Source: Woeseiaceae bacterium
GTDB lineage: Bacteria; Pseudomonadota; Gammaproteobacteria; Steroidobacterales; Woeseiaceae
DNA: 38,704 nucleotides
NCBI GenBank assembly: GCA_029246105.1
Contig: JAQWOA010000052.1
Location: 1-38,704 of the forward strand
Reading direction: 5' to 3'
Of the stretch, positions 2 through 6,526 are shown one piece after another (the first letter of the stretch is position 1; every line of letters starts with the position of its first letter). The notes under the pieces are model-generated. The model made no database searches, had not been told where the DNA came from, and saw only the letters and a program-made list of their open reading frames with translations. The translations under genes were made by a program, and so were the position numbers.

Positions 2-928
2 TGGACGCCAAAGGATAAACTGAAAGCGGTGGATAATATCAGCTTTGATCTGTATCCCGGTCAGACCCTTGGGGTGGTCGGGGAAAGCGGCTGCGGCAAA
101 TCCACTTTAGCGCGCGCGATCATTCGTATGCTTCCGGCGGAAACGGGCCAAGTGCTTTGGCTGGGGCAAGATTTACTCACCACAAGCGATGCTGCGATGA
201 AAGAAAAGCGCCGCGATCTGCAAATGATTTTCCAAGATCCACTAGCCTCACTTAATCCGCGAATGACAATTGGTGAAATTGTTGCAGAACCACTCAAAAC
301 ACACTTCCCACAAATGAGCAAAGACGAACGTAGCGCAAAAGTACGACAAATAATCAAAAAAGTTGGAATCTCGCCCAATTTAATTAACCGTTACCCACAT
401 GAGCTTTCAGGTGGCCAATGTCAACGAATCGGAATAGCAAGGGCATTAATTATTAGCCCCAAACTAATCATCTGTGATGAACCAGTCTCAGCGTTAGATG
501 TTTCAATTCAGGCACAGGTGATTAATTTGTTAATGGAGTTACAAAACGAGCTAGGTCTTTCGTTAATATTCATTGCGCATGATCTGAGTGTAGTAAAATA
601 TATTTCTGATCATGTAATGGTCTTATACCTAGGCAATATCGTAGAACTTGCCCATAGCAAAGACTTTTATGATCGTCCATTGCATCCTTATGCTCAAGCA
701 TTAATTGCCTCTGTGCCAGTGCCGGATCCTACGGCACTCAAAAAATCACAAAATAAGTTAATTACAGGTGAGCTACCATCACCAATCAATCCACCTTCAG
801 GTTGCGTCTTTCACACTCGATGCTGTCATGTGACAGATATTTGCACGAAACAAAAACCTGCAGCAGATACACTAAATAAAAATCGTTTGGTTGCCTGTCA
901 CCATTGGCGACAAATCAATGCTGGATAA
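2..928 (+). CDS. oppF: Oligopeptide ABC transporter ATP-binding protein, OppF/DppF type (5' end truncated by window)
   Basis: Frame is open from base 2 (WTPKDKLKAVDNISF...). Walker A GESGCGKST, signature LSGGQ, Walker B LIICDEPVSALD, and the OppF-type C-terminus GELPSPINPPSGCVFHTRC. Confidence 0.93.
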   Translation, partial: WTPKDKLKAVDNISFDLYPGQTLGVVGESGCGKSTLARAIIRMLPAETGQVLWLGQDLLTTSDAAMKEKRRDLQMIFQDPLASLNPRMTIGEIVAEPLKTHFPQMSKDERSAKVRQIIKKVGISPNLINRYPHELSGGQCQRIGIARALIISPKLIICDEPVSALDVSIQAQVINLLMELQNELGLSLIFIAHDLSVVKYISDHVMVLYLGNIVELAHSKDFYDRPLHPYAQALIASVPVPDPTALKKSQNKLITGELPSPINPPSGCVFHTRCCHVTDICTKQKPAADTLNKNRLVACHHWRQINAG

Positions 929-971: not shown

Positions 972-1132
972 TCAACCAAAGCGGCCAGTAACATAATCTT
1001 CAGTAAGACGATGTCCTGGGTTGGTAAAAATCTTATCGGTCGCGTCGACTTCAATGAGCCGGCCAAGTTAAAAGCTATCATCTGTCGAATCTGCTCTTCG
1101 TCCTCAACCACTAATATGCATTTAGAAGGCAT
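972..1132 (-). pseudogene. Fusion scar: phoB 5' fragment (1061-1132) joined to pstB 3' fragment (972-1064) in a different frame
   Basis: Minus strand from 1132 reads [24 protein letters not shown] (PhoB-type receiver N-terminus). After about 1064 another frame reads [30 protein letters not shown], which matches the PstB C-terminal pattern (..IFTNP...TEDYITGR(Y/F)G*). Confidence 0.75.
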
Positions 1133-1251
1133 TATAAGAATGTAACCTATCGTTCATGTATTTTAAATCATCAGATCAAGTAAAAATTTCATTTGTATGA
1201 CAAACTTATGAATAAAATGTTACACGTTCCTTTCTCCTTTAAGGTAAATAC

Positions 1252-2631
1252 ATGAGAGAACATCAAGAATCTGGTTTTTTACAATCGATGATCTGTTTCG
1301 GTGGTGTCATTATGATTATCATCGTCGGGCTACTATGGCTCGAAATCAGTCTACATAGTCTTATGCTGATTGCACTCATATGGGTTGCTTGCCACTCAAT
1401 AAGCCTCGGTTTCAGATTCCCAGAAATTAAAACTGCGATGATCTCCGGCATAGAAAAAGGCCTTGGGGCCATCTTTATCTTTTTTCTAATCGGTGCTTTA
1501 ATCGCCGCGTTGATTGAGAGTGGAACAATCGGTGGCCTTATTTACTACGGTTTGGATATCCTGCATCCGAGCATTTTCCTACCAGCTGGTTTAGTCCTAT
1601 GTAGCCTCATGTCACTCGCAACCGGTACAGCATGGGGAACAATAGGAACCCTCGGTGTTGTCTTAATGGGTTTGGGTGATGCGCTAGGCATTCCGCTGCC
1701 GCTGATCGCTGGTATGGTCGTCTCTGGCGCAAGCTTCGGTGATAAAATGTCACCTGTGTCTGATACAACTAATCTCGCCGCCATGAGTGCTGGCACAGAC
1801 CTCTACTCTCATATTAGGTCGATGCTATATACGACCGTTCCTACTTATGTCATTTGCCTTATCATTTATACATTCATTGGATTGAACTATAGCGTGCATA
1901 CCATCTCTGCACAGGAGCTGATCGATCTAAAGCAATATATCGCAATCGAGTTTTGGATCGGACCACTCACGCTGTTGCCATTAATCGTACTGCTTGGCCT
2001 CAGTCTTAAACGAGCACCGGCGGAAGTTAGTATGCTCGGTAGTGTCGCTACTGCAATCGTACTCGCTGTCGTCATACAGGATCGATCTATATCTGAGGTA
2101 CTAAACAGCCTTAACAGCGGCTATAAAGCGAATACAGGACTAGAGAGCTTAGATGTGATTCTAACCCGGGGGGGAATGCAAAGCATGATGTGGACTATGT
2201 CACTCGCGCTTCTTGCACTATCACTTGGTGGTCTGCTTGATCGTGTGGGCTTCGTCCGAGTACTAATGAGCGGATTGCTTATACGTATCAAACGCGCCGC
2301 AACTTTAATGACTGCCACTATTGGCGCAGGTATCGTTGCCAATATGAGCATGGGGGAGGGATACCTTTCCATTATCTTTGGCGGGCAAATATTTAAGAAG
2401 TCCTATGAAGAGCATAATCTCAAGAAGCATATGCTGTCACGAACCCTCGAAGAAGGCGCAACACTCAGTACAACGTTGATCCCCTGGACTACCTCTGGTG
2501 CGTTCGTTACGGGAGTTCTTGCGATATCACCGTTGGATTTCGCCCCATGGGCATTCTTTAACTACATCAACCCAATACTATCCATTGTCCTTGCCTATAT
2601 CGGTTTTGGAATTTTTCGAAATCGTAAATGA
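1252..2631 (+). CDS. nhaC: NhaC-family Na+/H+ antiporter
   Basis: Polytopic 459 aa protein with the NhaC-type stretch GTAWGTIGTLGVVLMGLG...GASFGDKMSPVSDTTNLAA. Confidence 0.88.
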   Translation: MREHQESGFLQSMICFGGVIMIIIVGLLWLEISLHSLMLIALIWVACHSISLGFRFPEIKTAMISGIEKGLGAIFIFFLIGALIAALIESGTIGGLIYYGLDILHPSIFLPAGLVLCSLMSLATGTAWGTIGTLGVVLMGLGDALGIPLPLIAGMVVSGASFGDKMSPVSDTTNLAAMSAGTDLYSHIRSMLYTTVPTYVICLIIYTFIGLNYSVHTISAQELIDLKQYIAIEFWIGPLTLLPLIVLLGLSLKRAPAEVSMLGSVATAIVLAVVIQDRSISEVLNSLNSGYKANTGLESLDVILTRGGMQSMMWTMSLALLALSLGGLLDRVGFVRVLMSGLLIRIKRAATLMTATIGAGIVANMSMGEGYLSIIFGGQIFKKSYEEHNLKKHMLSRTLEEGATLSTTLIPWTTSGAFVTGVLAISPLDFAPWAFFNYINPILSIVLAYIGFGIFRNRK

Positions 2632-4330: not shown

Positions 4331-4359
4331 TTGACATAGCTATGTTTGTGGTCTACTTT
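4331..4359 (+). promoter_or_regulatory. Putative sigma70 promoter for the cobalamin riboswitch/btuB transcript
   Basis: TTGACA (4331-4336), 17 nt spacer, TACTTT (4354-4359), immediately upstream of the riboswitch. Confidence 0.5.
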
Positions 4360-4365
4360 CATTTC

Positions 4366-4528
4366 CAGATGGTGCTCTAGAATATTAGAGTTAAGAGGGA
4401 ATCCGGTGCAAATCCGGAGGTGTACCCGCAACTGAAAGCTAGGAGATGTCGGCCAGTCGAGCCACTAGGAGTTTGATTCCTGGGAAGGCGGCCAGCATTT
4501 GTGATTAGTAAGCCAGGAAACCTGCCAT
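4366..4528 (+). ncRNA. Cobalamin (AdoCbl) riboswitch
   Basis: ggtgct...aagagggaatccggtgcaaatccggaggtgtacccgcaactg...B12 box agccaggaaacctgcc (4511-4526), directly upstream of a btuB-like gene. Confidence 0.92.
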
Positions 4529-4672
4529 CGCGTCGTTCGTCCGAGGTCGGGATAACCTTTGGGGCCGGATTCACATTTTCCCGTGAAACGACAAGTCATT
4601 GGCTCGTCGCTCTGCTCTAGCAGTAATAGCCATAGTTGTCTCAAATCAGTCCAAGGTTGACGTCTTAGGGCT

Positions 4673-6526
4673 ATGGGGAAATTCAAATTGTTTGAGAAAC
4701 TTAGTATTTTTTGTCTTGCTATATTGACCAGTGGTGGTGTCTTTTCTGCAGAAAAATCTTCAAGCAACGAACCGACTGAAAATCTTATTGTTTATGGTGT
4801 GCGACTCCAGCAACCAACGACAGAAATTGGCTCGAGTGTATCCATCTTGACGGCGGATGATATCGAAGCATTGGGTTCAAACTTTGTGCTCGATGTGATC
4901 TCAACTCTACCTGGCGTAACAATCAACCAAAATGGTGCATTCGGTGGAGCGGCCTCAGTTCGTATTCGTGGAGCATCAAGCGAACAAACACTCGTAATTA
5001 TTGATGATGTAGTTGTCAATGATCCAACTTCCCCAGGTGGTGGCTTTGATTTCTCAAGAATGGACCCATGGAATATTGAGCGCATCGAAGTACTGAAAGG
5101 CCCGCAGTCAACTCTATGGGGAACAGATGCTATGGGCGGTGTGATCAATATCGTTACAAAGCGTCCTGAAAATGAATTTAACCGTAGAGCTTTTATCCAA
5201 GCAGGATCATTCAACACGCTTCGAAGTGGCGCGGAGCTCAGTGCAGCAATGGATCATTACGACTTCCGGCTTGCGGCAACCAGCACTTCTTCTGATGGCA
5301 TATCAAAAGCAGATAAGATCAATGGCAACACAGAAGAAGATGGGTATGACGCTAATACAGTTCATGCCGCTGCTGGAACTGAGCTTTGGGGTAATGCCCG
5401 CTTACAAGCTAATGCTCTATGGACTAATGCAAAATCTGATTTCGACAGTTATTCGTTTGGAGCGCAAGGCAATGTCGGTGATGGTGACGAATACAGCAAG
5501 ACTGAAGAGGTTGCAGCCAATCTCAAACTGTTACTGCCCTTACTTAATGGCAAACTCGAAAGCATATTCCTCGCTGGGTACTCTGACATTGATAGAAAAA
5601 GCTTCAATGCTGGAATTCAAGGCTTTTCAAGCAAAGGCAACCGAAAGATTTTGCGTTATCAAGGTACGCTGAATATTAATGAAAGCAGCCGACTTGCATT
5701 CGGTGCTGAACAGGAAAAGAGTAAAGTAAATGATGATGACATCACGATAAACGGCTTATTCGCATTATACGAACTTCAAGTCCTTAATTCTGTGACTGTC
5801 AGTGCAGGTTTACGAAGTGACAACCATGATCGCTTCGAGGCGGTCACAACAGGGCGTCTTGCGGCAGCTTATAATCCAAATGATCAGATTACATTGCGTG
5901 CGAGTTGGGATGAGGGATTCAAATCACCCACTCTTTTTCAAACAACCTATTTCTGTTGCGGCGCGACATCGCCGAATTCGGAATTGAAGCCAGAAACATC
6001 TGAGGCCTTTGATATTGGCATAACTTTTCGAACTGCTGATAAGCGTGGAGGGATCGAACTAACCTATTTTGATCAAGATACTACAAATCTCATTAACTTC
6101 TCTTATGGCATTGGTGGATATGAAAATATCGCAGCGGCAAGCTCATCAGGCATCGAAGTTGGTAGTAATTATAGCTTTATGTCATGGCTTAATGCAGCCA
6201 TTAGCTACACTTACATTAATGCAAAAGACGGTACTGGTACACCGCTCATCAGGGTGCCAAAACACTCAGGTGATTTGATTTTTTCATTCAATCCAAAAGG
6301 CCGCCTAAACGGTTCCTTGCATATCAAACACAATGGCGAAGAACAGGATCCGAATGGTGTTATCGATTCTTGGTCGCGTGTTGATATCACGAGTCGCTAT
6401 GCAATTAGCGATAGTGTCAAAATATATGCACAAATAGAGAATCTGTTTGACAAGCAATATCAACAGATTATCGGCTACGGAACGCCTGGTATTTCTGGTC
6501 ATCTTGGCGTGCATCTAAGGTTTTAA
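4673..6526 (+). CDS. btuB: TonB-dependent vitamin B12 receptor
   Basis: Signal peptide, plug-domain motifs (DVISTLPGVTI, VRIRGASSEQTLVIIDD, IERIEVLKGPQSTLWGTDAMGGVINIVTK), C-terminal beta strand ending in F, and location behind a cobalamin riboswitch. Confidence 0.9.
   Translation: MGKFKLFEKLSIFCLAILTSGGVFSAEKSSSNEPTENLIVYGVRLQQPTTEIGSSVSILTADDIEALGSNFVLDVISTLPGVTINQNGAFGGAASVRIRGASSEQTLVIIDDVVVNDPTSPGGGFDFSRMDPWNIERIEVLKGPQSTLWGTDAMGGVINIVTKRPENEFNRRAFIQAGSFNTLRSGAELSAAMDHYDFRLAATSTSSDGISKADKINGNTEEDGYDANTVHAAAGTELWGNARLQANALWTNAKSDFDSYSFGAQGNVGDGDEYSKTEEVAANLKLLLPLLNGKLESIFLAGYSDIDRKSFNAGIQGFSSKGNRKILRYQGTLNINESSRLAFGAEQEKSKVNDDDITINGLFALYELQVLNSVTVSAGLRSDNHDRFEAVTTGRLAAAYNPNDQITLRASWDEGFKSPTLFQTTYFCCGATSPNSELKPETSEAFDIGITFRTADKRGGIELTYFDQDTTNLINFSYGIGGYENIAAASSSGIEVGSNYSFMSWLNAAISYTYINAKDGTGTPLIRVPKHSGDLIFSFNPKGRLNGSLHIKHNGEEQDPNGVIDSWSRVDITSRYAISDSVKIYAQIENLFDKQYQQIIGYGTPGISGHLGVHLRF

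Follow-up and report, generated by a model that had tools for sequence, protein, structure and literature searches.

How did the start of a phoB gene come to be joined to the end of a pstB gene between oppF and nhaC in a reduced gammaproteobacterial genome, and whose phosphate genes were they? The join was examined in a window of 38,704 nucleotides from Woeseiaceae bacterium, meaning the whole stretch of DNA that was analysed, which is contig C52 of a 1.35-Mb MAG (G000) comprising 58 contigs at 88 % completeness. Relatives are referred to as the genus (a sample of 73 species, including the sisters G004 and G011) and as f15, another family of the same order to which genome G217 belongs. The features on which the argument turns are as follows, in window coordinates.

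2 to 928, plus strand: oppF, the left flank, with its 5' end beyond the contig (NF011659 OppF, 496 bits).
972 to 1067, minus strand: pstB 3' remnant, the last 31 codons plus the stop TGA at 972-974 (translation; TIGR00972/NF010860; identity to G217).
1064 to 1067: putative deletion junction, bases CTTG (minus) assignable to either gene (codon comparison, 10 f15 genomes).
1064 to 1132, minus strand: phoB 5' remnant, codons 1-23 (translation; TIGR02154 as best family; f15-type residues).
1186 to 1224, minus strand: candidate Pho box, TGTAAC-ATTCAT-TGTCAT-TGAAAT, with an 11-bp period (21/24 matches).
1252 to 2631, plus strand: nhaC, Na+/H+ antiporter gene, the right flank (TIGR00931, 425 bits, above cut-off).

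Further along the window, a cobalamin riboswitch (RF00174, 110 bits) was identified at 4353-4543, upstream of a gene for a TonB-dependent receptor (4673-6526).

The gap between oppF and nhaC in G000 measures 323 bases and contains a scar of approximately 160 bases, in which the first 23 codons of phoB are joined out of frame to the last 31 codons of pstB. Translation of minus 1132-1061 returned TIGR02154 (PhoB) as the top NCBIfam family over positions 3-22, a match that is weak by itself (17.7 bits, E 0.0017). The translation of minus 1067-972 matched the NCBIfam PstB models over their C-terminal 30-31 positions, namely TIGR00972 at model positions 219-248 of 248 (28.7 bits, E 8e-7) and NF010860 at positions 223-253 of 253 (31.4 bits, E 1.5e-7), and Pfam gave nothing useful on the short pieces. 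An intact 326-aa protein of G217, itself above the PstB family cut-off, ends in the identical 31-mer (31/31, E 5.5e-17). The family matches and this identity bear out the original prediction of a PhoB-type start and a PstB end as adjoining minus-strand peptides, the PstB peptide being confirmed by a full-length gene in a relative. The ORF at 932-1132 (66 aa) represents the phoB frame continuing through pstB in the wrong frame; its PhoB part spans 22-23 codons and stops before GCC, the 24th codon ('A'), which most likely belongs to pstB and is read here in the wrong frame.

Judged by its residues, the PhoB and PstB of the scar are of f15 type and not of the type carried by its own genus. The 31 PstB residues share 71-81 % identity with those of the genus, whilst nine of the best 10 intact PstB matches (84-100 %) are from f15, and the closest ends among 396 genomes of the order, G217 (100 %), G167 and G153 (90 %) and G215 and G183 (87 %), all belong to that family. 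In PhoB, the scar displays the f15-type residues RQM and FNL, where the genus has REM or RDM and FHL; in PstB, it displays DYVTG and GRFG, which are also f15-type and are absent from sampled genus members. Over the 54 joined residues, whose 54 codons make up the entire donor signal, the scar reached at best an identity of 0.87 with f15 and of 0.70 with the genus. As a control, nine genus genomes were compared over the same residues, and each was nearer to its own genus (0.83-0.91) than to f15 (0.72-0.76).

Other clues to origin were tried and set aside. Third-position G+C was undiscriminating, the value for the scar (0.43) fitting the host (0.27-0.46) and lying near that of G217 pstB (0.48) too. 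A phage source was rejected as no phage record resembles the scar, a plasmid source because the matches are ordinary pstB ends at no more than 68 % identity, and a viral-contig source because matches reached only 58 %, the viral contigs concerned being five (L227-L231) that encode a PstB-like C-terminus. A second stray pstB tail was observed in a reduced genome of another family (G029, 1.6 Mb), which carries an intact pstB elsewhere. This orphan 3' end (L117:9472-9555; G029:C12:392471-392554) consists of 27 codons, ISVDDTEKVFTNPSHTLTQDYITGRIG and a stop, directly after a tRNA-like gene that by eye is probably tRNA-Phe, and displays residues VD and GRIG that are nearer the window's genus than G029's own pstB.

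Gene order in relatives accounts for the form of the join. The genus layout is dinG-tsaB-phoB-phoR-porin-phoU-(dsbB)-[dapE, opposite strand]-pstS-pstC-pstA-pstB-(arsC)-dapD-glnD-map; in 28/28 genus genomes that carry both genes on one contig, phoB and pstB share a strand, with phoB 8-11 kb upstream. The f15 layout is a compact phoB-phoR-phoU-pstS-pstC-pstA-pstB cluster on one strand (e.g. G217:C176, G038:C4), spanning about 7.6 kb from phoB to pstB in 10/10 loci read. In G217, PhoB, PhoR, PstC, PstA and PstB were above their family cut-offs and PstS was below its own, with phoU assigned from layout only. The ancestral order supposed in the original prediction, phoB ahead of pstB, is therefore conserved in both groups, and, given that order on a shared strand, a single internal deletion would give exactly the join seen in the scar. 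The compact f15 cluster resembles the scar in gene order, strand and the sequence of both ends (31/31 PstB residues in G217), but is intact, lies in another genomic context and shows a nucleotide identity of only 82 % at the end of G217 pstB.

The site itself appears to be unused in relatives. In both sisters oppF adjoins nhaC across a bare spacer of about 110 bp without scar-like or pho DNA, and a search of G004 and G011 with the 31-residue PstB end recovered no PstB end. An intact cassette at oppF/nhaC was present in none of the genomes examined, and relatives with an oppF-[pstB...phoR-phoB]-nhaC arrangement, originally suggested for comparison, did not appear among those sampled. In G000, G004 and G011, the tsaB-dapE region is on another contig and lacks phoBR, phoU and pstSCAB, reading dinG-tsaB-porin-dsbB-dapE-arsC-dapD-glnD within the limits of each contig. 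On these contigs, loss of the native pho/pst genes is a state common to G000 and its two small-genome sister species, and the retention of porin, dsbB and dapE indicates piecemeal loss of the native genes from around them. The stripped locus was located at L206:7339-7460 (G004:C35) and L204:7205-7284 (G000:C19). The old phoB Pho box persists behind tsaB, where it now lies upstream of porin; in G004 the sequence that follows tsaB is TCGTAACAGTCCTGTA, which is the genus phoB Pho box. Taken together, the f15-like residues, the empty site in the sisters and a native locus elsewhere argue that the scar marks a horizontally acquired cassette.

Upstream of the phoB start, four TGTMAY-like hexamers at 11-bp spacing were found on the minus strand from 1224 to 1186, and Pho boxes consist of 11-nt direct repeats (PMC4415409). 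When scored by 11-bp period, 0/4000 resamples reached 21/24 matches, a score to be read as supporting only since the TGTMAY consensus was picked after viewing genus promoters; scored by the 18-nt CTGTCAT consensus, the candidate Pho box was not significant (P 0.07). The promoter is not closely like the phoB promoters of either the genus or f15. The candidate Pho box therefore supports the identity of phoB rather than any particular donor.

At the junction, the phoB and pstB genes of 10 f15 genomes, taken as stand-ins for the lost parents, allow 1-4 nt to be shared. The shareable stretch would reach 7 nt at most were residue 24 of PhoB an Ala encoded by GCC, as is the case in 0/10 f15 genes. 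An 8-nt shared ttggccgg, as put forward originally, would need a PhoB sequence absent from f15 and could not be sustained on this comparison; a microhomology-mediated deletion is possible.

The preservation of both pieces bears on the age of the loss. The pstB piece displays 17 nucleotide differences from G217 in 31 codons, distributed over 16 codons and all synonymous. Neutral decay was simulated with intact relatives as the start and preservation scored by a position-specific matrix; the joint probability of both fragments being open and so well preserved was 0.034 at 0.1 substitutions per site, dropping to 0.00002 at 0.2. At fourfold sites G000 differs from its sisters by 0.47-0.90, mostly above 0.7, with about 0.4 on the G000 branch. 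The exclusively synonymous differences and the low neutral age indicate that selection maintained the genes until a short time ago, consistent with the recent loss that had been proposed.

Among the families searched across assembled G000, intact PhoB, PstB, PstC and PhoU were each absent, as was the Na/Pi cotransporter family. Loss of the high-affinity Pho system, as predicted, is thus upheld for the searched families, and a further pho locus could still lie in the unassembled part of this 88 % complete genome. G000 and G011 each encode a full-length Pit, and G004 has a partial one at a contig end; from what is known of the family, this low-affinity transporter would be the phosphate importer left in G000. 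PstC-like matches with in-frame stops (G000:C3, G004:C2, G011:C90) were considered as pst pseudogenes and discarded, being intact modB of a modABC cluster. Across the genus, a strong PhoB match was missing in 25/73 species and in 5/31 high-quality genomes, and Pho-system loss may be repeated within it.

We consider it likely, from the comparisons above, that the scar is what a deletion left of a compact Pho cassette, acquired horizontally and formerly located between oppF and nhaC. Under this explanation, the native pho/pst locus at tsaB-dapE would have been taken apart in this lineage, and an f15-type cassette of about 7.6 kb (phoB-phoR-phoU-pstS-pstC-pstA-pstB) would have been present between oppF and nhaC, kept there by selection. 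One internal deletion, running from about codon 23 of phoB to a point 31 codons short of the pstB stop, would then have removed regulator, sensor and transporter together, with Pit remaining as the phosphate importer found. We infer that the cassette was acquired complete and was functional in this lineage, that the events took this order and that the deletion was single rather than several. More tentatively, the Pho system may have been lost, regained at oppF/nhaC through a foreign cassette that was used, and lost again very recently, in which case oppF/nhaC could be a flexible-island site with an intact cassette in other conspecific cells.

That the scar is instead the rest of the lineage's own pho locus, deleted in one event either at its ancestral place or after a move between oppF and nhaC, is unlikely. 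The native genus locus (tsaB-phoB-phoR-porin-phoU-dsbB-dapE-pstSCAB-dapD-glnD) does place phoB ahead of pstB in the same orientation, and PstB VDxTD is common to the genus and part of f15. However, this locus differs from the scar in its location, in its PhoB/PstB sequence type and in holding porin, dsbB and dapE, which G000 retains; since it is still recognizable with these genes, a single native phoB-to-pstB deletion cannot have made the scar, and RQM, FNL, DYVTG and GRFG are f15-type residues that no sampled genus member carries. The original prediction of one deletion through a phosphate locus therefore stands as regards the join, which one deletion explains, but not as regards its native origin.

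It is rather improbable that the join was made elsewhere, with a scar-like or chimeric phoB/pstB piece imported as is and the cassette never having worked at oppF/nhaC in this lineage. Only the joined ends are present, the sisters are without cassette DNA, and the orphan pstB 3' end beside the tRNA-Phe gene in G029 would lend such an import some plausibility, but the phoB start retains its upstream Pho-box-like repeats and the low neutral age demands a very recent import of a piece without selectable function. An assembly artefact, through misjoined contigs or repeats or through foreign reads built into the contig, was raised in the original prediction and is very unlikely. Although G000 is a MAG with 58 contigs, examined as assembled sequence, and the insert resembles DNA of another family, oppF and nhaC adjoin in two independent sister MAGs, the bin holds no other pst or phoB sequence to misjoin, and several independent breakpoints would be needed within about 300 bp.

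The proposed gain and loss of a cassette has a parallel in the marine order HIMB59, in which flexible phosphate-related genomic islands carry pstSCAB, phoU and phoRB with a content that follows phosphate level, and in which the cassette varies between lineages in association with horizontal transfer, one of two families also having Pit (PMC10734472). The likeness lies in streamlined marine genomes with a pstSCAB-phoU and phoRB cassette coming and going (PMC10734472). In HIMB59 the island is intact and occupies one position across the order (PMC10734472), whereas here there is only a deletion scar, in a gammaproteobacterial genus, at a site unused by sampled relatives and with the native locus lost elsewhere. 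By analogy, the present case, seen in one genome per species, may work like the flexible islands of HIMB59.

The scar would represent a datable trace of how phosphate genes turn over in a reduced genome, marking precisely both ends of the foreign cassette that was lost, whilst the native locus records a loss separate from it. Presence/absence tables would reveal no more than the lack of pst and pho genes; the scar points to a second, horizontally obtained set that was selected until recently. It also predicts where intact copies may be sought in sibling cells, and so makes it possible to test whether the gain and loss of these genes are driven by phosphate supply.
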